Shown piece after piece: positions 21,555 through 37,738 of a stretch of DNA of 38,590 nt; the stretch's first letter is position 1; each line of letters begins with the position of its first letter. The notes beneath the pieces were generated by a model. The model was not told where the DNA came from and did no database searches. It saw nothing but the letters and a program-made list of their open reading frames with translations. Both the position numbers and the translations under genes were made by a program. The stretch is from Porticoccaceae bacterium (GTDB lineage Bacteria; Pseudomonadota; Gammaproteobacteria; Pseudomonadales; Porticoccaceae), in assembly GCA_018654575.1 (NCBI GenBank), contig JABILI010000045.1, positions 1 to 38,590 of the forward strand, in the 5' to 3' direction.

Positions 21555-21570
21555 AGCCATCTAAACGGCA
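21555..21570 (+). promoter_or_regulatory. Putative MetJ box before cysJ
   Basis: AGCCATCT-AAACGGCA, two adjacent 8-mers with 6/8 and 5/8 matches to the MetJ repeat AGACGTCT, and 13/16 identity to the box before metB. A -10-like TATGAT lies at 21531-21536, so the box would fall just downstream of the start of transcription, 28 bp before the cysJ ATG. No good -35 is seen, which would fit an activator-dependent promoter such as one using CysB. Confidence 0.5.
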
Positions 21571-21597
21571 ATAATCTCGCCGCATTAACGACTTAAT

Positions 21598-23412
21598 ATG
21601 GCTGGGTGTAACGTGACAGACCAAACTTCCCTACAACGTGCTACCGCAAGATTTACCAATATAGATGGTGAGTTACTGCAGAAAGTGTCCAATTTGGGGC
21701 CTAGCGAGCTACTTCTGTTGGCAGGGTACTGCGCGGGGCTGGCCGAGACTGCTCCGGCGCAGTTAAATGCTGTAGGTACCCTAGGTACGGCACATGAATC
21801 ATCTGAAGACAGTTCGCTTAAGGGTTTAATACTCTATGCATCACAAACTGGTAATGCTCAAGAAATTGCTGAAAGTTTACAACAGAGTCTGGAATCTAGT
21901 GGCTATAACACAGTCCTTGAATCTACACTCGACATTAAACTTGCCCGGCTGAAGGACTATGCACTGATAGTGGTGATCGCTTCCACTCATGGAGAGGGCG
22001 AACCTCCAGATGATGCCATAGACTTTTATGAGGCCGTTGTTTCTAAGAAGGCCCCCAGTCTTAATGGCGTGAAACACGCTGTATTAGGCTTGGGTGATTC
22101 GAGTTATGAATTTTTTTGTCAGACCGCTAAAGATTTTGAATCGGCTCTATCAGGTCTGGGTTCTGAGCCCCTAATTGAACGGCTAGATTGCGATGTCGAT
22201 TATCAGCAGGAGACGCTTAATTGGATAACTCAGCTTGTCGGCGCCATTGCTGAGTTGCAGCCACCGGTATCATCGGCTCCGGTTCTAGCTGAAAATATTA
22301 TTCAGTTTCCTTATTCTAAAGAAAAACCCTTCTCAGCGACCATTTCTATTATTCAGAAATTAACCGCGCCGGACTCCATTAAAGATACCTATCATCTTGA
22401 AATAGATTTAGCAGGTTCAGGACTTAGCTATCGCCCAGGGGATGCTCTAGGGGTTTGGGCGGATAACGACAAGGATTTGGTTGCAGAGATTTTATCTCGG
22501 CTCAGCATTGACCCGCAGACAAGCGTCAGTTTTAAAGGCGAAGGGCATAGTATTGAAGACTTATTACATCATAAGCTAGAAATTACGCTTCTAAACAAGG
22601 GTCTTATTCGAGAGCTATCATCCTTAAGTGGCTCCCAGAAATTACTCGATATTGCAGATACAGGTTACTCTGAGTACATCCGCAATCATCAGCTAATTGA
22701 CGCGCTAAAACTCGCCAATGTCACTTTACAGGCCCAGCAATTAGTTCAAATGTTAAAGCCGCTTAAGCCTCGCCTTTATTCCATCTCATCGAGTATCGAT
22801 GAGAATCCTGAAGAGGTTCATATCACTCTGAATCACCTAGAGGATGAGAACGAAGATGGAACTCGTTATGGTCAAGCATCCCACTTTTTAACACGCAAGC
22901 TCAGTGAGGGCGACATTGTTAATGTGTATGTGGATCATAACAAGAACTTCAAATTACCATCCTCGGATAAAGCAATCATTATGGTCGGGCCGGGAACCGG
23001 TATCGCTCCCTTTCGCTCCTTCCTGCAACAGCGAGAAGCTGAGCAAGCTAAAGGGCGTAATTGGTTATTCTTTGGTAATCCCAACTTTAATACTGATTTC
23101 TTGTACCAAACAGAGCTGCAAAAGCATCTAAAGTCAGGTCTTCTGACAAAAATCGACATTGCCTTTTCTCGGGATCAAGAGCAAAAAATCTACGTTCAAG
23201 ACAGGCTGCGCCAGAACGCTGAGCAGGTTTGGCAGTGGTTAGAGCAGGGTGCTTATTTTTATGTCTGTGGTGATATGTCTCGCATGGCCAAAGAGGTGGA
23301 GCTGGTATTGCTGCAGATTATTGAGAAGCAGGGCAATAATACCCAAGCCCAAGCAAAAGATTATTTAAAGCAGCTAAAGAAACAATCGAGATACCAAAGA
23401 GATGTTTATTAA
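21598..23412 (+). CDS. cysJ: Assimilatory sulfite reductase flavoprotein subunit CysJ
   Basis: A 604-residue diflavin reductase. An FMN-binding flavodoxin domain starts near residue 77 (LILYASQTGNAQEIAESL), then a FAD domain with RLYSISSS and GQASHFLT, and an NADPH domain with GPGTGIAPFRSFLQQRE, FFGNPNFNTDFLY and a terminal YQRDVY that stacks on FAD in this family. It passes electrons from NADPH to the CysI hemoprotein. Start ATG 21598 lacks a strong ribosome site; GTG 21613 is an alternative. TAATG overlap with cysI shows coupling. Confidence 0.95.
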   Translation: MAGCNVTDQTSLQRATARFTNIDGELLQKVSNLGPSELLLLAGYCAGLAETAPAQLNAVGTLGTAHESSEDSSLKGLILYASQTGNAQEIAESLQQSLESSGYNTVLESTLDIKLARLKDYALIVVIASTHGEGEPPDDAIDFYEAVVSKKAPSLNGVKHAVLGLGDSSYEFFCQTAKDFESALSGLGSEPLIERLDCDVDYQQETLNWITQLVGAIAELQPPVSSAPVLAENIIQFPYSKEKPFSATISIIQKLTAPDSIKDTYHLEIDLAGSGLSYRPGDALGVWADNDKDLVAEILSRLSIDPQTSVSFKGEGHSIEDLLHHKLEITLLNKGLIRELSSLSGSQKLLDIADTGYSEYIRNHQLIDALKLANVTLQAQQLVQMLKPLKPRLYSISSSIDENPEEVHITLNHLEDENEDGTRYGQASHFLTRKLSEGDIVNVYVDHNKNFKLPSSDKAIIMVGPGTGIAPFRSFLQQREAEQAKGRNWLFFGNPNFNTDFLYQTELQKHLKSGLLTKIDIAFSRDQEQKIYVQDRLRQNAEQVWQWLEQGAYFYVCGDMSRMAKEVELVLLQIIEKQGNNTQAQAKDYLKQLKKQSRYQRDVY

Positions 23413-25124
23413 TGAGTGATACGAAAATTACACCAACACACTATGACGCAGTCACTCATAACGACGTTGAGAGAATCAAGGTTCAGAGCGACTATTTGCG
23501 TGGAAGTATAAAAGATGGATTAGTTGACCCCGTGACAGGGTCCATTTGTGACGATGATCAGGTGTTGATTAAATTTCATGGTATTTATCAGCAAGATGAT
23601 CGGGATTTACGTAATGATCGACGAAAATCAAAGCTAGAGCCTTTATATTCTTTTATGATCCGCGCACGAGTGCCTGGCGGCGTGGCAAATGCTAAGCAGT
23701 ATTTAGTGCTAGCCGAATTGGCGAAAAACTATTCCAATGGAAGTTTACGTTTAACCACACGTCAGGCGTTTCAGTGGCATGGGGTATTTAAGAGAAATCT
23801 TAAGCAAACTATAGCCGGCATAAATTCAACATTACTCGATACGGTTGCCGCTTGCGGTGATGTAAATCGAAACGTGATGGCCACGTCTTTGCCCGAAACG
23901 TCTGAAATTCATCAAGAGATTTATCAGTGGGCGAAAAAGCTTAGCGAGCATCTATTGCCAAAGAGTAATGCCTTTCACGAAATATGGTTGGACGGGGAAA
24001 AGATCGAAACCACTGAAGAGCCCATTTATGGGAAAACGTACTTACCCCGAAAATTTAAAACGGCAATAGCAATCCCACCCCATAATGATGTTGACGTTTA
24101 CGCTAACGATTTAGCGTTTGTGGCGATTATTGAGCAACATAAGCTCGTTGGGTTTAATGTATTGGTTGGCGGCGGCATGGGCAGTGCACACAACGACAGC
24201 CAAACATACCCAAGGGTGGCCGATGTCATTGGCTTCTGTACCCCAGATAAATTGTTAGCGGTTGCTGAAAGTGTTGTTAGGGTTCAGCGGGATTACGGTA
24301 ATCGCGAGGTCCGCAAGTTGGCTCGCTTGAAGTACACCATCGATCGCCTCGGTATTGATACATTTAAGTCTATCTTGAGTGAGTATTTGGGTTGGTCATT
24401 AGATCAGGCGAAGCCTTTCGAATTTACGGGTAATGGAGATCGCTATGGTTGGCTACGAACTGAGAACAAAAAATGGCATTTAACCCTCTATATCCATAGT
24501 GGACGCATAATTGATAGCCCCCATTCCACAGTGTTCTCAGGCTTGTTGGAGATCGCCAAGATTCACCAAGGTGAATTCAGAATTACGGGTAATCAGAACT
24601 TAATTATTAGTAATATCGACCCTGAGACAAAAGATCATATTCAAACCCTAATCAACAAACATGGCATTAGTTTTGGCGAGAAAGAAACGCCGATAAGGTT
24701 GAATTCTGTAGCCTGCGTCGCTTTTCCAACCTGCTCTTTGGCGATGGCTGAAGCTGAACGCTACTTGCCGGACCTCATTAGTCGAATTGAGGGGATTCTA
24801 GAGCAGTATGAATTGTTGGAACAGCCAATTAACATTCGCATGACGGGTTGTCCAAATGGTTGCGCCAGGCCATTTTTAGGTGAAATCGGTTTTGTGGGCA
24901 AAGCGCCAGGGAAATACAATTTGTATTTGGGTGCTAGCTTCAAAGGTGATCGACTGAATAAGTTATACAAAGAAAATATCAACGAACAGCAGATTCTCGA
25001 TGAGTTGACCCCTTTACTTAAGGATTATGCCGGCCAACGCAATAAGGGAGAGTATTTTGGTGACTTTGTGATTCGCCAAGGGTACATCAGATCGGTTGTT
25101 AATGGGTTGGATTTTCATGGATAA
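23412..25124 (+). CDS. cysI: Assimilatory sulfite reductase hemoprotein subunit CysI
   Basis: A 570-residue siroheme/4Fe-4S enzyme that reduces sulfite to sulfide with six electrons. Cluster ligands are Cys435 and Cys441 (ACVAFPTC) and Cys480 and Cys484 (GCPNGC), one position from E. coli numbering. Other family segments include LRLTTRQAFQWHGV, GDVNRNVMAT and FNVLVGGGMGSAHND. Second gene of cysJIH, overlapping cysJ by one base and cysH by 8 bp. It needs siroheme, whose first dedicated step is encoded by cobA 1.9 kb away. Confidence 0.97.
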   Translation: MSDTKITPTHYDAVTHNDVERIKVQSDYLRGSIKDGLVDPVTGSICDDDQVLIKFHGIYQQDDRDLRNDRRKSKLEPLYSFMIRARVPGGVANAKQYLVLAELAKNYSNGSLRLTTRQAFQWHGVFKRNLKQTIAGINSTLLDTVAACGDVNRNVMATSLPETSEIHQEIYQWAKKLSEHLLPKSNAFHEIWLDGEKIETTEEPIYGKTYLPRKFKTAIAIPPHNDVDVYANDLAFVAIIEQHKLVGFNVLVGGGMGSAHNDSQTYPRVADVIGFCTPDKLLAVAESVVRVQRDYGNREVRKLARLKYTIDRLGIDTFKSILSEYLGWSLDQAKPFEFTGNGDRYGWLRTENKKWHLTLYIHSGRIIDSPHSTVFSGLLEIAKIHQGEFRITGNQNLIISNIDPETKDHIQTLINKHGISFGEKETPIRLNSVACVAFPTCSLAMAEAERYLPDLISRIEGILEQYELLEQPINIRMTGCPNGCARPFLGEIGFVGKAPGKYNLYLGASFKGDRLNKLYKENINEQQILDELTPLLKDYAGQRNKGEYFGDFVIRQGYIRSVVNGLDFHG

Positions 25125-25827
25125 CAGTCGAAGTTGGCTAACAAATGCAAATGAAGACCTAGAGAAAAAAACGGCACTTGAGCGAATCGAATTTGCAGCC
25201 GAGAATTTACCTGGTAAATTCTCGCTTGCATCGAGTTTTGGTGCTCAATCAGCAGTCAGCTTGCATTTAATCACTCTGGTTATGCCAAAGATTCCGGTGA
25301 TACTCATCGATACAGGGTATTTGTTCCCAGAAACGTATCAATTTGTTGACCAACTGACAGAGGCTCTAGACTTAGATGTGCATGTTTATCAAAGTAAAAT
25401 GAGTCCCGCTTGGCAAGAGGCGCGCTATGGGAAGCTCTGGGAAAAGGATACTCTCGCTTTGAATGAATACAACCAACGTAACAAAGTAGAGCCAATGGAC
25501 AGGGCCTTAAACGAGTTAGAGGTAGGTACCTGGTTTGCAGGTCTTAGGCGAGATCAATCAAAATCACGCCATGTACTGCCCATTATTCAAACCTTTAAGG
25601 GCCGAGTAAAAGTCCACCCAATTGTTGACTGGTCTAATAGAGACATCCATCAGTATTTGCAGAAGCACCGACTGCCTTATAACCCGTTATGGAACAAAGG
25701 TTATGTCTCAATTGGAGATAAGCACAGCACTAAACCCTTGACGTTGGGTTTGTCCGAAGAAGACACAAGATTCGGTGGAAAACAACGTGAATGCGGCTTA
25801 CACGTCGATACATTAGCCGGTTTATAA
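25117..25827 (+). CDS. cysH: Phosphoadenosine phosphosulfate reductase CysH
   Basis: A 236-residue thioredoxin-dependent PAPS reductase. ATP-PPase-like nucleotide site in SLASSFGAQSAVSLHLI, LIDTGYLFPETY, and the catalytic C-terminal KQRECGLHVD with Cys226. The CC...CxxC cysteines of APS reductases with an iron-sulfur cluster are absent, so the substrate is PAPS rather than APS. ATG 25117 lies inside cysI; the frame also reads from an upstream 25096 start. Its stop is 14 bp from the convergent cysB stop, with no terminator visible between them. Confidence 0.95.
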   Translation: MDNSRSWLTNANEDLEKKTALERIEFAAENLPGKFSLASSFGAQSAVSLHLITLVMPKIPVILIDTGYLFPETYQFVDQLTEALDLDVHVYQSKMSPAWQEARYGKLWEKDTLALNEYNQRNKVEPMDRALNELEVGTWFAGLRRDQSKSRHVLPIIQTFKGRVKVHPIVDWSNRDIHQYLQKHRLPYNPLWNKGYVSIGDKHSTKPLTLGLSEEDTRFGGKQRECGLHVDTLAGL

Positions 25828-25841
25828 GTTCTCGGTTAAGT

Positions 25842-26846
25842 CTATATATGCCACATTTCATGCATTGGGAGTCTTGATGCTTCTGGCTGAATTTCATTAT
25901 TTGAGGCATTTGGAGGTAATAGATTATCCTGAAATAAATAGCGCTTATAGTCTCTTTCAGAGATGTGTGGGGCAAATAACTGTATAAAATCTTTCATATA
26001 TTTACGTAAAAAAAGATTCTTGTTAAACGCTAACCAAGTTGTACAGCGGGGCAATATCTCCTTCGTAGAATAACCAATAAGATCACGATCCGATTTGGCT
26101 TCAAATGCCATGCTGGCAATAATTCCCACACCAAAGCCACGTTTAACATAGGTCTTGATGATGTCTGCATTTCGGGCGGTAAATACAATATTTGGTTCTA
26201 GGTTCTCTGCTCGACAGCTATTAATAAAGGATGACTTTTCGTTGTCACCCACATGATAGGTCACTATAGGGTATTGGGTAATATCCTCTAACGTCGGTCT
26301 GACTAAGTCACCTAATGGGTGCTCCTGAGGGAATAATAGAATCCTATCCCATTGGTAGCAGGGTATTTTTACAATATCAGGCCCCAATTCGTCATTCCCT
26401 GATGCAATGGCGAAGTCGATACTTTGTTTGTTGAGTAACTCTATAATGTGGTCGGTCGATCCTTGCTGGAGATCAATTCTCAGGTTCGGATATTGCTTAT
26501 GAAAATTCAAAAACACCTGAGGCAATACATACTGGGCTTGAGTTTGGGTAGTACCAATAGTGAAGTTGCCATGGGCCGACGCATTAATGTCGGATGTCAG
26601 GCGTTTGATGTTATTAATTTCTTGTAAGACTTTTCTTGAACGATTGAGAATCTCTTCGCCCAAGGCGGTTATTCCCACTAGCTGTTTGCCATTGCGTTCA
26701 AATATCTTTATTTGCAATTCATCTTCTAAGAGCCTCAGTTGCTTACTGATACCCGGTTGAGACGTATATATTTTTGCCGCCGCGGCAGTGATACTTAAAT
26801 TATTATCAGCGATGGCAATCAGGTATTTTAATTGGTGAAGCTTCAT
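25842..26846 (-). CDS. cysB: CysB, LysR-type regulator of cysteine biosynthesis
   Basis: A 334-residue LysR regulator close to CysB over its whole length: winged HTH (residues 1-60, MKLHQLKYLIAIADNNLSIT, YTSQPGISKQLRLLEDEL), then the inducer domain with GTTQTQAQYVLPQV, PCYQWDR, DITQYPIVTY, FTARNADIIKTYV and FIQLFAPHISERD. CysB senses N-acetylserine/O-acetylserine and activates sulfate assimilation. ATG 26844-26846 gives the conserved start; an upstream GTG (26888) would add 14 unconserved residues. No Shine-Dalgarno is seen, and a perfect AGACGTCT lies 8 bp before the start. Divergent from cobA, convergent with cysH. Confidence 0.92.
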   Translation of the reverse strand: MKLHQLKYLIAIADNNLSITAAAAKIYTSQPGISKQLRLLEDELQIKIFERNGKQLVGITALGEEILNRSRKVLQEINNIKRLTSDINASAHGNFTIGTTQTQAQYVLPQVFLNFHKQYPNLRIDLQQGSTDHIIELLNKQSIDFAIASGNDELGPDIVKIPCYQWDRILLFPQEHPLGDLVRPTLEDITQYPIVTYHVGDNEKSSFINSCRAENLEPNIVFTARNADIIKTYVKRGFGVGIIASMAFEAKSDRDLIGYSTKEILPRCTTWLAFNKNLFLRKYMKDFIQLFAPHISERDYKRYLFQDNLLPPNASNNEIQPEASRLPMHEMWHI

Positions 26847-26862
26847 GGCCGTATAGACGTCT
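26847..26862 (-). promoter_or_regulatory. Putative MetJ box abutting the cysB start codon
   Basis: On the minus strand AGACGTCT-ATACGGCC immediately precedes the cysB ATG. The first unit (26855-26862) is a perfect 8/8 MetJ repeat; the second matches 5/8. A repressor bound here would cover the ribosome-binding region or the transcription start. Confidence 0.6.
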
Positions 26863-26944
26863 AAATGGAAAGGTGCCCAATTTAACACAAGACAGATTAG
26901 AGTGCCATTATTTTTAACCGAACCCTCTAAAAAAAGATGATGCC

Positions 26945-26961
26945 CTACGGTTATAACGTAG
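26945..26961. repeat. Inverted repeat in the cysB-cobA intergenic region
   Basis: CTACG-GTTATAA-CGTAG, a 5-bp perfect inverted repeat with an AT-rich 7-bp centre, lies midway between the two divergent genes, 22 bp before the cobA-side MetJ box. It has the size and symmetry of a LysR-type operator and could be a CysB site, but this is inferred. Confidence 0.35.
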
Positions 26962-26982
26962 TGCTTTTACTTATTTAATTTT

Positions 26983-26998
26983 AGCCGTCTAGATGTTC
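26983..26998 (+). promoter_or_regulatory. Putative MetJ box before cobA
   Basis: AGCCGTCT-AGATGTTC, matching the MetJ repeat at 7/8 and 5/8. The first unit is identical to that of both metJ-metB boxes. An AT-rich -10-like TTTAAT lies just upstream at 26974-26979. The box ends 12 bp before the chosen cobA start. Confidence 0.55.
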
Positions 26999-27010
26999 AT
27001 AGTGGTGTCT

Positions 27011-27916
27011 ATGAAATACGATATGTTTATACCAAAGCTATTTATTGGGAAATGCCTTTTGGCATTTACGGCTTTTGTTGCGCGGTGGGGCCATTATCTC
27101 AATCTAAATATTTCAGTCAGACAAAAGGTGTATTTAGTTGGTGGTGGACCTGGGGACCCGGATTTATTGACGGTCAAGGCGCACAAGTTGCTTCAAAAAG
27201 CAGATGTTGTCTTATATGATGCTTTAATCAGCCCAGAAATACTTAATTTGACCAACCCAAAAGCGCTCTTGATTAGCGTCGGCAAACGAGCCAACAATCA
27301 CAGTAAAAAACAGCAAGAGATAAACCAGTTACTAGTTAAGTACGGCAAGCAAAAAAGGTCAGTGGTTCGCTTAAAAGGCGGCGATCCGTTTATTTACGGA
27401 CGTGGTGGTGAGGAGCTTCAGGCTTTGATCAGTGCGGGGATTGATTTTGAAGTTGTGCCGGGTATTACCGCAGCCTCTGGTTGCGCAAGCTATGCAGGAA
27501 TTCCCCTCACTCATCGGGATTATTCCCAAACAGTCATGTTTATTACAGCCCAGTGTAGGAATTCAGAGGAAAATCTAGACTGGACTAGTATTGCTAGGAA
27601 AAATCAGACGGTTGTGGTGTACATGGGGTTGTTAAAAAATGATGTTCTCTCTCAGCAATTGATTGCCTATGGCCGTTGCCCTGATACCCCCGTCGCTGTG
27701 GTTGAAAATGGCACGACTAGCTCTCAAAGGGTCATCACTGGGACCCTAGGTTGTCTGACTGAAATGGTTAAAGAGCATCAGGTCATATCCCCCGCATTAA
27801 TGATCATTGGCGAGGTTGTTGTTTTTGCCCGCCAACTGGATTGGCATCCAAATAGCCAAATGATTCAACATATTAGTAAAGCAAAACCATTTTATGAACT
27901 AAGAGAGGCAGTTTAG
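27011..27916 (+). CDS. cobA: Uroporphyrinogen-III C-methyltransferase (SUMT)
   Basis: The tetrapyrrole methylase domain begins near residue 36 of a 301-residue product with VYLVGGGPGDPDLLTVKA, followed by VVRLKGGDPFIYGRGGEE, EVVPGITAASGCASYAGIPL and VVVYMGL. It methylates uroporphyrinogen III at C2 and C7 to precorrin-2, the first step to siroheme for CysI. Ordinary SUMTs start a few residues before VYLVG; here about 35 extra residues, hydrophobic and not recognised, precede it, and no ATG, GTG or TTG close to the domain is preferable. ATG 26993 lies in the MetJ box, ATG 27023 is another option. The CysG dehydrogenase/ferrochelatase domain is missing, so another gene must finish siroheme. 4 bp to cysK. 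Confidence 0.88.
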   Translation: MKYDMFIPKLFIGKCLLAFTAFVARWGHYLNLNISVRQKVYLVGGGPGDPDLLTVKAHKLLQKADVVLYDALISPEILNLTNPKALLISVGKRANNHSKKQQEINQLLVKYGKQKRSVVRLKGGDPFIYGRGGEELQALISAGIDFEVVPGITAASGCASYAGIPLTHRDYSQTVMFITAQCRNSEENLDWTSIARKNQTVVVYMGLLKNDVLSQQLIAYGRCPDTPVAVVENGTTSSQRVITGTLGCLTEMVKEHQVISPALMIIGEVVVFARQLDWHPNSQMIQHISKAKPFYELREAV

Positions 27917-27920
27917 CGTC

Positions 27921-28886
27921 ATGGCACAGATTTATAATTCCATATTAGACACGATAGGCAACACACCTGTAGTAAAGATCAACCGGCTTGGACCGAAAAA
28001 GATTGATCTATATGTGAAGATTGAATATTTCAATCCTCTGGGGTCAGTTAAAGATCGCCTTGCATTTGCGATTATTAATGATGCGGAGCAAAAAGGTCAT
28101 TTAGAAGCCGGTCAAACCGTGATAGAAGCAACCTCAGGCAATACAGGCATTGCTCTAGCCATGGTATGTGCGGTCAAGGGCTATCCCTTTATTGCGGTGA
28201 TGACCGAAACCTTTTCAGTAGAACGACGAAAAATCATGCGCGCCCTTGGCGCTAAGGTGGTCTTGACTCCGGCAGCTGAACGCGGAACCGGCATGGTCAG
28301 GATTGCCAAAGAGCTTGCTGAAAAAAATGGATGGTTTTTAGCCAGCCAATTTGATAATCAAGCTAACCCCGAATATCACCGTAACACGACAGCACCCGAG
28401 ATATTACGCACCTTTGCGGGACGGCCTCTAGACTACTTTGTCAGTGGCTATGGTACCGGTGGAACAGTCACAGGCGTTGGTGAGGTTCTGAAAGTTGCTC
28501 GACCGAATATCAAAATTATCGGCACCGAACCAGAAGGCGCCGCTTTACTAAGTGGTAATGAGTGGCAACCTCACAAGATCCAAGGATGGACACCCGACTT
28601 TATACCCGATGTGATGAATCAAGCTATTTGCGATGAAGTTCTCCTCGTGAGTGATACCTTGGCGAGAGATACGGCGTTGGCACTTGCACGAAATGAAGGG
28701 ATTTTCTGTGGGATATCAGCTGGAGCTACCTTTGCAGCAGCTCTAAAAGTGGCTGAAACAGCAGCAGAAGGCTCTTCTATTTTAGCGATGTTACCTGACA
28801 CTGGAGAGCGCTATTTAAGCACCTTTTTGTTTGAGGATGTCGAAGAGGGCTCTGATGAGGCCATTTTGGCAACCCTTAATAGCTGA
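27921..28886 (+). CDS. cysK: Cysteine synthase (O-acetylserine sulfhydrylase)
   Basis: A 321-residue PLP enzyme of the CysK/CysM family. Lys44 in LGSVKDRLAF binds PLP; IEATSGNTGIALA holds the substrate loop; GTGGTVTGVGE binds the cofactor phosphate; GISAGATFAAAL and the terminal PDTGERYLSTFLF are typical of CysK. It joins sulfide from CysIJ with O-acetylserine to form cysteine. Cotranscribed with cobA (4 bp). The general sequence favours CysK over CysM, but the two cannot be separated with certainty by eye. Confidence 0.9.
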   Translation: MAQIYNSILDTIGNTPVVKINRLGPKKIDLYVKIEYFNPLGSVKDRLAFAIINDAEQKGHLEAGQTVIEATSGNTGIALAMVCAVKGYPFIAVMTETFSVERRKIMRALGAKVVLTPAAERGTGMVRIAKELAEKNGWFLASQFDNQANPEYHRNTTAPEILRTFAGRPLDYFVSGYGTGGTVTGVGEVLKVARPNIKIIGTEPEGAALLSGNEWQPHKIQGWTPDFIPDVMNQAICDEVLLVSDTLARDTALALARNEGIFCGISAGATFAAALKVAETAAEGSSILAMLPDTGERYLSTFLFEDVEEGSDEAILATLNS

Positions 28887-28919
28887 AGGCTCAGCGGTAG
28901 CTGGCTGAGTTGCCTAAGG
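28875..28919 (+). repeat. Stem-loop after cysK
   Basis: An imperfect nested hairpin: outer CCCTTA/TAAGGG and inner CTCAGC/GCTGAG, covering the cysK stop region and the start of the gap before the next gene. No T tract follows, so it is not a standard terminator; it could be a processing or pausing element. Confidence 0.3.
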
Positions 28920-28988
28920 GCTAGCGCATGGGGTAACCTAATGGGGCGGTATCGCAACAACACCTCTCCGCCCTTGAAGGTAGACCCT

Positions 28989-29657
28989 ATGGCCAAATCA
29001 GATCCCTTTATTCCCTTAGCGTTCTCTGTTCAGGAAGAGCAGGCAATGGAGGCTTCGGCAGCCTTATTTTATGAACAGATGTCCAGGCGCCGATCAGTGC
29101 GTGACTTTTCTGATCGGCCAATTCCTCGTTCCGTTCTTGAGCACGCTATATTAGCCGCCGGCTCAGCACCCAGTGGCGCCAACATGCAACCATGGCATTT
29201 TGTCGTAGTTCAGGACCCCGTAATAAAAAAACAGATTCGTGACGCTGCTGAAATAGAGGAGAGAGAGCTTTATAGCAACCGAGCACCTGATGAATGGCTG
29301 AAGGCGCTGGCACCCTTGGGGACAGACGCGAATAAACCATTCCTGGAAAAAGCACCTGTTTTGATCGCGATCTTTCTTAAAAAAGTGACAATTGACGAAA
29401 CTGGCCTGAAGCACAAAAATTATTACCCTTCTGAATCGGTAGGTATTGCCACAGGCGTATTGATTACAGCTTTGCATCAGGCCGGTTTGGGTACACTGAC
29501 GCATACGCCCAGTCCGATGAAGTTTCTAACTAAAATTCTGGACCGGCCCACATACGAGAGGGCCTTTCTGTTGTTGGTAGTGGGTTACCCCGCTGAGGGC
29601 GCGTTAGTGCCTGATATTGAGCGCTTATCGCTGGATAAAATTGCTACATTTATGTAG
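28989..29657 (+). CDS. Iodotyrosine-deiodinase-like flavoprotein (nitroreductase fold)
   Basis: A 222-residue FMN enzyme. RRRSVRDFSDRPIP (33-46) and GSAPSGANMQPWHFVVVQD bind FMN as in nitroreductases. After these it follows iodotyrosine deiodinase (IYD) instead of nitroreductase: an active-site lid with Glu91-x3-Tyr95 and Lys116, the same spacing (E, +4 Y, +21 K) as the human IYD triad that binds the amino-acid part of iodotyrosine, then YYPSESVGIATGVLITALHQ and VVGYPAEGALVPDIER. The reaction would be reductive dehalogenation of halotyrosines; this is inferred. ATG 28989 has GAAGG (28976-28980) 8 nt upstream; ATG 28941 would add 16 residues. It follows cysK by 102 bp and could be in the same transcript. 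Confidence 0.82.
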   Translation: MAKSDPFIPLAFSVQEEQAMEASAALFYEQMSRRRSVRDFSDRPIPRSVLEHAILAAGSAPSGANMQPWHFVVVQDPVIKKQIRDAAEIEERELYSNRAPDEWLKALAPLGTDANKPFLEKAPVLIAIFLKKVTIDETGLKHKNYYPSESVGIATGVLITALHQAGLGTLTHTPSPMKFLTKILDRPTYERAFLLLVVGYPAEGALVPDIERLSLDKIATFM

Positions 29658-29709
29658 AGAGGTAGCCGTAGCTCGATCAGAGCAGGCATCATTTGGGAAG
29701 ATCATACCT

Positions 29710-30006
29710 TTAGCTTCTATTTATAGTGCCTTTGTCTTCCATTTCTTGAGCATAGTCAGTGTTAGTTTTACGCAGATCATCGTCGGTCGGTAATGGTTGG
29801 CCGGTATAAGCATGCAAAAAAGCTTCACATAGAAGTTCGCTGTTAGTCGCGTGCCGAAGGTTACCGACTTGGCGGCGTGTGCGCTCGTCGGTCAGTATTT
29901 TCAATACACTGAAGGGAATAGACACAGTAATCTTTTTGACTTTGTCTTTCTTTTCGCCATGTTCAATGTAGGGATTGATGAAATTACCATTCCACGTTTT
30001 AGCCAT
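29710..30006 (-). CDS. metJ: Methionine repressor MetJ
   Basis: A 98-residue ribbon-helix-helix repressor, nearly identical to E. coli MetJ in its core: [19 protein letters not shown] (the beta ribbon that enters the DNA groove), [34 protein letters not shown] and GQPLP. It is 7 residues shorter than the 105-residue E. coli protein at the variable C-terminus. It binds S-adenosylmethionine and represses methionine genes at tandem AGACGTCT boxes. Divergent from metB with two boxes between them, as in enterics, so self-regulation is likely. Confidence 0.96.
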
Positions 30007-30049
30007 GTATACCTCAACCTTATTCGTTTTAGTTATTGTAGCTTAGTTT

Positions 30050-30065
30050 AGCCGTCTCTACATCT
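30050..30065. promoter_or_regulatory. MetJ box on the metJ side of the metJ-metB region
   Basis: AGCCGTCT-CTACATCT, 7/8 and 5/8 to the MetJ repeat. It lies 44 bp upstream of the metJ start and touches the proposed -35 of metB (30065-30070). A TACAAT -10-like hexamer for metJ lies just downstream of it on the minus strand. Confidence 0.6.
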
Positions 30066-30092
30066 TGACTTGCAAAACTTAGGCGCTAAGAT
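30065..30092 (+). promoter_or_regulatory. Likely metB promoter
   Basis: TTGACT (30065-30070), 16 bp, TAAGAT (30087-30092). Transcription would start near 30099, exactly at the edge of the second MetJ box. Predicted by consensus. Confidence 0.5.
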
Positions 30093-30097
30093 GCTTT

Positions 30098-30121
30098 AGA
30101 TGGTTAGCCGTCTATACGGCT
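30098..30121 (+). promoter_or_regulatory. MetJ box before metB (three repeats)
   Basis: AGATGGTT (5/8), AGCCGTCT (7/8) and ATACGGCT (6/8) in tandem. The last two form a near-perfect 16-bp inverted repeat. It covers the predicted metB transcription start, a position fit for repression. Confidence 0.7.
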
Positions 30122-30166: not shown

Positions 30167-31420
30167 ATGTCAACCAACAAGACCACCTTATCCGTTAGAG
30201 CGGGCATAGATGCCGATAGTCAGTTCGGAGCTGTAACGCCACCGCTTTATCTATCAAGCAATTTTACGTTTGAAGATTTCGCGAAGCCAAGGAAATATGA
30301 TTACTCTCGCTCGGGTAACCCGACGCGTGACATACTGGGAAAGGCCTTGGCAGAATTAGAGAACGGCTATGATGGGGTTATCACCTCCAGCGGCATGTCG
30401 GCGATTTACTTGGTGACGCACCTTCTTGATAAGGGAGACGTCATAGTCGCGCCTCACGATTGTTATGGTGGCAGCTATAGGTTGTTTGATTCACTAAAAG
30501 AAAAGGGTCTTTTTGAGGTTGTTTTTGTCGATCAGGGCGACCCTGTAGCTCTTGCAGCTGCCCTCGCATTAAAGCCGAGATTGCTCTGGATAGAAACCCC
30601 CAGCAATCCTTTATTCAGAGTCGTGGATATTGCCAAAATCTGTCAGCAGGCGGGCAGTGATGTCATTAAGGTCACCGATAACACTTTCCTCTCTCCAATA
30701 CTTCAGCAGCCCCTAGACTTGGGCGCCGATATTGTTGTTCATTCAACCACTAAATATATTAATGGCCACAGCGATGTCGTCGGTGGGGCAGTTATTGCTA
30801 AAACCAAAACTCTACACGAACAGTTGGCTTGGTGGGCGAATTGCACAGGTATAACGGGATCTCCTTTTGATAGCTTTATTACTACTCGAGGCTTAAGGAC
30901 GCTCGGCGTTAGAATGAGGCAGCATGTCGAGAACGCCGAACAGGTGGTTGATTATCTTAATCAACACCCATTGATTGAAAGGGTGTTTTATCCAGGGCTT
31001 AAAGATCACCCAACGCATGAAATAGCAGCAAAACAACAAAATGGCTTTGGAGCGATGTTCTCGTTTTGTTTGAATCTAGATAAAGCTTGCTTAAAAGGCT
31101 TTGTTAATAACCTTGAATATTTTTCTTTTGCCGAGTCATTAGGTGGCGTTGAGAGTCTCATATGCCATCCAGCAACGATGACCCATGCGGCAATGAGTCC
31201 AGAGGCTCTTAAAAAAGCGGGGATAGGGACAAATTTATTACGTTTGTCGGTTGGTATAGAGGATGTTAACGACTTAATCAGTGATATTGATAATGCTTTG
31301 CAAAAAAGTCAGCAAGACAGTTTGGCTGGTGCTCAAGTGAAGAATCTTGCTGCAGGCTCACAACCCATTTCTTATGAGAGTTCAGCTGACTCAAAGGCGT
31401 TAGGCGAGACCTGTCTTTAG
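30167..31420 (+). CDS. metB: Cystathionine gamma-synthase MetB
   Basis: A 417-residue PLP enzyme collinear with E. coli MetB: DYSRSGNPTRDILGKALAEL, GMSAIYLVTHLL, PHDCYGGSYRLFDSL, VTDNTFLSPILQQPL, PLP lysine Lys196 in HSTTKYINGHSDVVGG, and SLGGVESLICHPATMTHA. It joins cysteine with activated homoserine to form cystathionine, linking the cysteine genes here to methionine. ATG 30167 has AGGGA (30156-30160) 6 nt upstream; ATG 30134 is in frame. A tail of about 30 residues beyond E. coli MetB is unrecognised. It overlaps the convergent LysR gene by 21 bp. Confidence 0.93.
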   Translation: MSTNKTTLSVRAGIDADSQFGAVTPPLYLSSNFTFEDFAKPRKYDYSRSGNPTRDILGKALAELENGYDGVITSSGMSAIYLVTHLLDKGDVIVAPHDCYGGSYRLFDSLKEKGLFEVVFVDQGDPVALAAALALKPRLLWIETPSNPLFRVVDIAKICQQAGSDVIKVTDNTFLSPILQQPLDLGADIVVHSTTKYINGHSDVVGGAVIAKTKTLHEQLAWWANCTGITGSPFDSFITTRGLRTLGVRMRQHVENAEQVVDYLNQHPLIERVFYPGLKDHPTHEIAAKQQNGFGAMFSFCLNLDKACLKGFVNNLEYFSFAESLGGVESLICHPATMTHAAMSPEALKKAGIGTNLLRLSVGIEDVNDLISDIDNALQKSQQDSLAGAQVKNLAAGSQPISYESSADSKALGETCL

Positions 31421-37058: not shown

Positions 37059-37149
37059 GGTGAGGTGTCCGAGTGGCTGAAGGAGCACGCCTGGAAAGTG
37101 TGTAAGCGTTAATAGCGTTTCGAGGGTTCGAATCCCTCTCTCACCGCCA
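37059..37149 (+). tRNA. tRNA-Ser(GGA)
   Basis: A 91-nt tRNA with acceptor stem GGTGAGG/TCTCACC (one G-U pair), discriminator G and encoded CCA (37147-37149). D arm GAGTGGCTGAAGGAGC, anticodon GGA at 37093-37095 in loop CTGGAAA, a long variable arm (serine class II) and T arm GAGGGTTCGAATCCCTC. The 259 bp between gcvP and this gene hold no ORF or convincing promoter that I can see. Confidence 0.97.
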
Positions 37150-37279
37150 TATATCATCTTCAAAGGCTCTACAGCCCTTGTTAGCTCTCGTTTCTTGCGA
37201 GGCTGATGAGGAGCAGTAGACAATAACGTAGACACTTAAAAACTTCATCTAGTCTACAAATGCTATGACCTCAAAACGT

Positions 37280-37738
37280 CTAACCACATCTACTAAAAAC
37301 CTTTTTATCATTAGCAACTAAAGACAACCCATACTTAACCTTCACTGCATAATACTTCTGCACATACTCACAGAACCTAACAATCTCATACTCCAAACCC
37401 TTTCCATCGCGGCTTCTGCGCAAGAAATCACTAGGCCCTTCAGAGCCTTTAGAACTGTTCACACGGCCGCACGAAGGCACATGATTAGATCTGTCGTTAG
37501 CGAAGGTTTCTTTCTTAGAATCGCTCCAAGAGGATGCTCCGCTGTCGTATGCGTCCTTGAGGCTGACTACATGGTCTATGTTGATGAAGTCACAGGATTG
37601 GTTTATGTAGAAGCCTATGGATGTAGAGGGTTTGTAGCTACGATAGTTGAAGTCTGAGCGGTCGTAGCCATCTGCAAAGGACAGTGAAGCCGTTGCGATT
37701 ATTATTGCGCTGATGAGGCCTAGGAATAAGGTTTTCAT
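37280..37738 (-). CDS. Secreted HNH (DUF1524-like) nuclease candidate
   Basis: A 152-residue protein with a signal peptide (residues 1-22, SLSFA-DG). The mature part has the DUF1524/GmrSD-type HNH layout: INIDHVVSLKDAYDSGASSW with His56, TFANDRSNHVPSCGRVNSSK with Asn85, Asn94 and Lys97, then GSEGPSDF. Four cysteines (49, 90, near 126, and 151) could form disulfides in the periplasm or outside. Small secreted proteins of this family are usually taken as DNases. The usual Trp-Pro after KGxxxP is replaced by SDFLRR. AT-rich DNA next to tRNA-Ser suggests acquisition. Activity is inferred. Confidence 0.7.
   Translation of the reverse strand: MKTLFLGLISAIIIATASLSFADGYDRSDFNYRSYKPSTSIGFYINQSCDFINIDHVVSLKDAYDSGASSWSDSKKETFANDRSNHVPSCGRVNSSKGSEGPSDFLRRSRDGKGLEYEIVRFCEYVQKYYAVKVKYGLSLVANDKKVFSRCG

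Follow-up and report, generated by a model that had tools for sequence, protein, structure and literature searches.

A cluster of sulfur-assimilation genes in a Porticoccaceae bacterium carries five MetJ-type operators and is most likely a self-regulated island that passed from a Kangiella-like donor into a Porticoccaceae-type marine bacterium, where it would be repressed by S-adenosylmethionine (AdoMet)-bound MetJ and controlled in feed-forward fashion through a CysB-family activator. The stretch of DNA analyzed (the window) is contig JABILI010000045.1 at its full length of 38,590 nucleotides, which is contig C46 of a source genome of 2.42 Mb (103 contigs, 97.6% complete) referred to below as G000. 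MetJ is the textbook repressor of methionine genes, and cysJIH and cysK of Escherichia coli are targets of CysB.

The original prediction placed five MetJ-type sites in this cluster, and all five were recovered. The site before cysJIH lies at 21555..21570 on the plus strand and consists of two abutting metboxes (AGCCATCTAAACGGCA, 13 of 16 positions agreeing with the palindrome described below); the site at 26847..26862 abuts the cysB start codon, reads GGCCGTATAGACGTCT (AGACGTCTATACGGCC on the cysB strand) and has the top matrix score in the window; and a third precedes cobA-cysK at 26983..26998 on the plus strand (AGCCGTCTAGATGTTC, 12/16). The remaining two share the metJ-metB intergenic region, with one site on the metJ side at 30050..30065 (AGCCGTCTCTACATCT, 12/16) and a three-box operator on the metB side at 30098..30121, whose top pair of boxes at 30106-30121 reads AGCCGTCTATACGGCT (15/16). 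Each site comprises 16 contiguous bases in which two 8-bp boxes directly abut, and a pattern with a spacer base between the halves had no match in the window at up to three mismatches. When the window was searched with the palindrome consensus AGCCGTCTAGACGGCT, itself derived from these five sites, exactly five 16-mers agreed at 12 or more of 16 positions, namely the sites themselves, compared with a mean of 0.94 in dinucleotide-shuffled windows (n = 500), only one of which reached five. All five are intergenic, with intergenic sequence making up a fraction of 0.088 of the window under the gene starts used here, and all consist of at least two abutting tandem 8-bp metboxes similar to AGACGTCT; the cobA box would overlap the start codon if cobA starts at 26993.

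An independent matrix, built from 31 distinct sites found upstream of metJ at 67 loci in other gammaproteobacteria, scored the cysB, metB-side, cobA, metJ-side and cysJ sites at 16.5, 15.8, 11.9, 10.9 and 9.1, respectively. These scores rank 1, 2, 5, 7 and 11 in the window, and 0.05, 0.08, 0.6, 1.2 and 3.4 matches at or above them are expected per shuffled window. The proposal that the sites are MetJ-type operators is supported. The matrix also picked out known operators of E. coli, scoring those of metJB, metF, metA and metR/E at 12.5-15.8 and that of metK at only 9.5. A terminator scan found a 6-bp stem with a T-rich tail at 30106-30121, so that this strongest site could be taken for an intrinsic terminator and not an operator; we judge this very improbable, since the site lies between the divergent metJ and metB starts instead of after a gene, has a second box beside it in the same intergenic region, continues into a third one at 30098, and has changed to AGACGTCTACACGTCT in relatives.

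The sites are conserved wherever the cluster occurs. Five of 112 family genomes contain metJ, all within one genus, and among 50 congeners searched a cysI orthologue (at least 80% identity) was found in the same five and as a fragment in G024. The cassette genomes are therefore G000 (the window is included in all counts), G019, G025, G026 and G027, plus G024 by its fragment. Boxes had been expected before orthologous cysJ and cysB in relatives, and the cysJ box is indeed kept in five of five cassette genomes (14/16 in G027 and G019) and the cysB box in six of six. The metJ-metB pair is likewise kept in five of five (metB side 13-15/16, metJ side 11-13/16), with the metJ-side box at the same place and matching at 11, 12, 12 and 13 of 16 positions in G027, G019, G026 and G025, respectively, and the metB-side box matching at 13/16 in each of these four relatives; in G019 and G026 the latter reads AGACGTCTACACGTCT, closer to the canonical repeat. 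The cobA box is kept in four of the five readable genomes, G024 being unreadable there (357 of 552 intergenic bases are N). In the comparison of G000 with G025, whose cassette proteins show identities from 67% (CysJ) to 80% (CysI), the boxes stand out against drifted flanks.

Beyond the genus, the best matrix match upstream of cysJ and of cysB was scored in 30 metJ-bearing genomes. Five of nine Kangiella/Marinicella-type cysJ upstream regions scored at least 10 (10.3, 10.3, 14.0, 14.3 and 16.1, the other four 5.0-7.2), compared with none of 15 in other metJ-bearing gammaproteobacteria, all at 3.7 or below; these counts leave out upstream regions shorter than 100 bp (L221, L222, L239 and L244). 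For cysB the corresponding figures were eight of 11 (13.0-24.5) and none of 17 (all at 8.0 or below), with L006 (98 bp, low score) kept among the 11 and L273 and L275 (36-39% homologues) placed outside both groups. The boxes near cysJ recur in three Kangiella and two Marinicella, and in Marinicella L338 a box scoring 16.1 stands directly before cysJIH. Class-wide, 29 cysJ upstream regions gave a best score of 9.9 and a next best of 7.0, while the resident cysB upstream regions of metJ-less congeners (24 with loci among 44 cassette-free genomes) held no box, all scoring 6.3 or less. In Kangiella shandongensis, one 20-kb stretch comprises cysK-cysG, cysB, cysHIJ, an oxidoreductase gene, metF-metL-metB-metX and metJ (cysG and metX were typed; metF and metL were named by eye and from PMC3228920), with boxes in the cysG-cysB intergenic region (13.0), upstream of cysJ (10.3) and in the metX-metJ gap (up to 21.0), as well as two extra matrix matches, one of 13.5 within a frame and one of 11.3.

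One further site lies outside the island. Three cassette genomes, G000, G019 and G027, share an identical three-box site scoring 15.4 where a gene for a TauD/TfdA-family dioxygenase starts (L352:2063, equivalent to G000:C66:49062, L353:2125 and L354:1873, respectively), and this site is absent among the matches listed for G025 and G026. It bears on the possibility that the palindromes are operators of another regulator, for example the CysB-family protein or a ribbon-helix-helix protein other than MetJ, that merely resemble metboxes. The palindromic form of the boxes and the CysB-family gene within the cluster would suit such a regulator, but we consider it extremely improbable: the boxes match a matrix derived from sites upstream of metJ in other genomes, they extend in an 8-bp register (at 30098-30121 and at the dioxygenase gene), and the 24 congeners with a resident cysB and no metJ have no boxes at cysB. 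LysR-type sites, moreover, have the form T-N11-A, which counts against a CysB-family operator.

The matrix scan placed no box upstream of metH, metK or metF in any of the five cassette genomes, where the classical MetJ regulon is represented by boxed metB and metJ. Scores in these loci were at most 8.8, except for 11.9 in the metK locus of G025 (L288:3138, some 0.7 kb beyond metK); the consensus gave one 12/16 match inside the metK match of G019, and metE gave no match with the E. coli segment as query. Because no box precedes metH, metK or metF, MetJ in these genomes looks to be mainly the controller of its own island, with the dioxygenase gene as one exception. Two other features of methionine metabolism were observed in these genomes. 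An O-acetylhomoserine sulfhydrylase gene of the MetY type (TIGR01326, above cut-off) lies outside the island at L359:1114-2382 (G000:C4) and is a possible second route to homocysteine. G025 has an E. coli-like metF (55%) beside metH, behind a gene with ArsR-type helix-turn-helix and methyltransferase domains (L290, G025:C7), and in the other four cassette genomes a distant metF (36-38%) lies near metK; such arrangements may place the methyl cycle under separate control.

Several observations weigh against the reading as a self-regulated island. The cysJ box reaches only 9.1 by the foreign matrix, a score for which 3.4 matches per window are expected by chance, and an unrelated site at 37266-37281, at the 3' end of an open reading frame (ORF) and the top matrix match in the window outside the cluster, scores 13.8, above three of the five. 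Matrix matches of 10-13.5 also occur within coding frames of E. coli and Kangiella, and a consensus promoter scan near the cysJ box found none, with three promoter-like matches in each of the other two box regions (1.2 and 0.6 expected). The cobA box is missing in G025, so that its predicted conservation held in part only; neither cysB nor cysJ is preceded by a box in Kangiellaceae L011 and L022, and the cysJ score of Marinicella L012 is only 5.3, which implies that MetJ control of cys genes is not universal in those lineages. The motif is not enriched across the genome at up to three mismatches (8 matches versus 7 for a reversed-pattern control), and neither is a degenerate pattern in G000 (13 versus 17), the other four cassette genomes giving 12 versus 20, 24 versus 19, 17 versus 21 and 13 versus 23. 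The dioxygenase site, finally, suggests that the regulon is not strictly local. Given the stray site of 13.8 and the chance expectations, the cysJ, cobA and metJ-side sites are unconvincing by sequence alone, and it is conservation that supports them.

The low foreign-matrix scores at cysJ and cobA (9.1 and 11.9), the loss in G025 and the boxless L011 and L022 would also fit an account in which only the metJ-metB boxes, and perhaps that of cysB, are working, the cysJ and cobA matches being due to chance or decay and cysJIH answering to a CysB-like activator alone. This account is unlikely in our view, because the cysJ box persists in all five cassette genomes despite drifting flanks, at 14/16 in two of them, and boxes at cysJ starts recur in the three Kangiella and two Marinicella. 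The distribution of matches across the genome points the same way in placement, if not in number. Three of the 8 hits at up to three mismatches lie in the cluster and are intergenic; the five off-cluster hits, all inside open frames, were dropped as chance. Degenerate-pattern hits with 0-1 mismatch fall in the island without exception in each of the five cassette genomes, and nine of the 13 hits in G000, those listed, comprise four in the island, four in frames and the conserved dioxygenase site; three off-island hits inspected elsewhere were one inside a frame (G019 C33) and two instances of the dioxygenase site (G019 C43 and G027 C80). The expectation that such sequences would be scarcer elsewhere in the genome thus failed in raw counts and stood in placement and conservation. 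Genome-wide counts alone are insufficient to dismiss a chance origin of the five sites, which is ruled out by the counts within the window, intergenic placement and conservation taken together, and the comparison confirms the five predicted MetJ-type operators as real and conserved.

Gene identities were assigned by scoring family models against curated cut-offs for 31 window genes and ORFs. The sulfite reductase flavoprotein gene cysJ (NADPH-dependent; 21613..23412, plus strand; TIGR01931, 691.7 bits versus a cut-off of 668) sits in an ORF that opens at 21598, the GTG at 21613 being the start common to relatives in alignment. It is followed on the plus strand by cysI for the sulfite reductase haemoprotein (23412..25124; TIGR02041, 841 versus 757) and by cysH for the 3'-phosphoadenosine 5'-phosphosulfate (PAPS) reductase (25096..25827; TIGR02057, 268.5 versus 254.2), the real start of which is probably near 25108-25120. 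On the minus strand at 25842..26846 lies the gene of a divergent CysB-family LysR regulator, whose ATG ends the reverse frame at 26846; its 347.9 bits (NF009326) do not reach the cut-off of 436 of the CysB equivalog model, which is nonetheless its top match. Next come cobA (27053..27916, plus strand; NF004790, 326.7 versus 198), a stand-alone uroporphyrinogen-III C-methyltransferase gene whose start is uncertain (the ORF opens at 26993 and the domain at about 27122), and cysK for cysteine synthase A (27921..28886, plus strand; TIGR01139, 405 versus 351). E. coli cysG, which the original prediction had assigned to CysB, is in the nir operon and not in the CysB regulon.

Between cysK and metJ lies a nitroreductase-family, BluB-like gene (28941..29657, plus strand; PF00881) that is also present in the G019, G026 and G027 cassettes and missing from that of G025. 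The repressor gene metJ, correctly predicted to lie inside the cluster, is at 29710..30006 on the minus strand (NF003622, 162.3 versus 110; PF01340, 152 versus 25); its product aligns without gaps to the solved E. coli MetJ over residues 4-88 (phmmer E-value 9.6e-40) and is by this alignment a close homologue of that repressor. The closest MetJ in the named genome collection, 95% identical, is in a Porticoccaceae metagenome-assembled genome, the locus of which has 89.7% alignment identity to that of the window across 17.1 kb. The cluster closes with metB for cystathionine gamma-synthase (30167..31420, plus strand; TIGR02080, 602.6 versus 504.6). A complete route from sulfite to cystathionine had been envisaged; PAPS reductase, sulfite reductase, the sirohaem methyltransferase, CysK and MetB are all present, and no sulfate-activation, serine-acetyltransferase or homoserine-activation gene is among the 31 genes and ORFs typed. 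A tRNA gene (Rfam) at 37059-37146, about 5.6 kb past the end of metB, was the sole match at the gathering threshold in the window and six met loci of G000, G019 and G025, with no riboswitch found.

The cluster itself appears to be of foreign origin. In a CysJ tree of 60 rows, the five rows from the genus of the window pair with four Kangiella rows (support 100/99) within a 12-row Kangiella-type group (100/99), and in a CysB tree of 48 rows, the six own rows fall in a 14-row Kangiella-type group (100/99), closest to Kangiella L007 (96/83), then to Marinicella, and separate from resident CysB; long branches leave other parts of the latter tree unsure. Outside the window genome, the best CysJ identity class-wide (369 genomes) was 47%, compared with 54-55% for Kangiella. 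The cassette of G025 is flanked by the resident cysG, which follows serS, and by a pyridine-nucleotide reductase gene that directly adjoins cysG in G000, and the other four cassette genomes carry it between queF and a LysR gene followed by gcvT. Patchy presence, foreign phylogeny and insertion between resident genes, all seen here, are marks of an acquired genomic island. Were the cluster instead ancestral in the genus and lost from most members, its likeness to Kangiella would reflect old vertical descent, and both its presence in five to six of 50 congeners (which also fits multiple losses) and the placement of the tree roots at midpoints leave room for this; we nevertheless find it decidedly unlikely in view of the strongly supported grouping of CysJ and CysB with Kangiella, the gap in CysJ identity and the two different insertion points. 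The original prediction had taken the regulon to be a resident one, a view at odds with a cluster that looks acquired and with the unboxed metH, metK and metF.

Acquisition of the island coincides with the absence or truncation of resident counterparts. Of 44 cassette-free congeners, 32 have a distant homologue of nitrite/sulfite reductases (24-32% identity), which was found in none of the six cassette genomes. Three of the 32 were typed and all fell below curated cut-offs, ferredoxin-nitrite reductase (208-219 versus 594) and NirA models being best, so that the missing homologue may reduce nitrite and not sulfite. At the resident serS-cysG-reductase locus of the cassette genomes (L300-L303 and L362), CysG has a length of 361-364 aa in G000, G019, G026 and G027, compared with 483 aa in G031; these four proteins stop inside the methyltransferase (SUMT) domain and have a tail in common, and the methyltransferase model matches the truncated G000 protein over positions 1-139 of 238 only. 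G025 retains an open CysG frame of 467 aa with a methyltransferase domain that is full-length in Pfam (171.7 bits), and decay of this domain is suspected, several residues differing from G031 in motifs that we take to be conserved. The sole complete methyltransferase copy found in the G000 search is cobA, which may now perform the first sirohaem step, with resident CysG carrying out the rest.

We infer from this arrangement that AdoMet-bound MetJ would occupy the paired metboxes before cysJIH, cysB, cobA-cysK, metJ and metB, such that plentiful AdoMet would jointly shut down the reduction of PAPS and sulfite, sirohaem methylation and the synthesis of cysteine and of cystathionine. MetJ would also repress the CysB-family activator, which would itself act on cysJIH, and this would place cysJIH in a feed-forward loop like that of MetJ, MetR and metE in E. 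coli. The likeness to the E. coli CysB regulon is in the presence of a CysB-family gene, and the island differs in having MetJ operators at the activator gene and at cysJIH and in the divergence of the protein. The MetJ-MetR loop, as outlined in the main text of PMC4239095, is one in which MetJ controls a LysR regulator of MetJ's own targets, whereas here the LysR regulator would be a CysB-family protein.

The main texts describing the MetJ regulon of enteric, Vibrio, Aeromonas and Alteromonas-type gammaproteobacteria (PMC3228920, PMC4239095) present the same repressor family, tandem 8-bp metboxes and boxed divergent metJ-metB promoter; relative to that regulon, the island adds boxes before cysJIH, cysB and cobA-cysK. 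A survey of MetJ that included Kangiella states in its main text that cysteine genes apparently never carry metboxes (Augustus and Spicer, 2011, PMC3228920), and that text does not name cysJ, cysH or cysB. The main text of a comparative study names no cysJIH, cysB or cobA target and reports an absence of potential horizontal transfers for MetJ regulons (Leyn et al., 2014, PMC4239095), whereas the MetJ regulon described here looks transferred. Literature searches, judged by titles and the openings of abstracts, showed no report of MetJ acting on cysJIH or cysB. The Kangiella metX-metB-metL-metF/metJ locus, as given in the main text of PMC3228920, is the likely source layout, with cys and met genes contiguous with metJ; the island differs in lacking metF, metL and metX and in having a stand-alone cobA in place of a full cysG. 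McbR/CysR of Corynebacterium, in the passages devoted to it in PMC2580772 and PMC4239095, is a TetR-family regulator responsive to S-adenosylhomocysteine and unrelated to MetJ.

More tentatively, and with somewhat less confidence than doubt, we suggest a travelling cassette: MetJ control may have widened to the supply from PAPS to cystathionine in the Kangiella and Marinicella lineages, where a divergent CysB would have come under MetJ to form a feed-forward loop, after which repressor, operators and enzymes may have moved as one unit to marine Porticoccaceae. There they would have taken the place of the resident nitrite/sulfite-reductase homologue and of the SUMT half of CysG without bringing host metH, metK and metF under MetJ control, and would later have drawn in at least one gene of the host, that of the TauD-family dioxygenase with its three-box operator. 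What appears new is the wider reach of a known regulator combined with the apparent joint transfer of a repressor, its operators and the enzymes between lineages, and the existence of cultured Kangiella and Marinicella makes direct testing possible. Boxes at sulfite reductase, the cys activator and cysteine synthesis would, if the interpretation is true, make AdoMet a signal for sulfur assimilation, and the same genomes suggest that a repressor can travel with its operators and replace resident enzymes.

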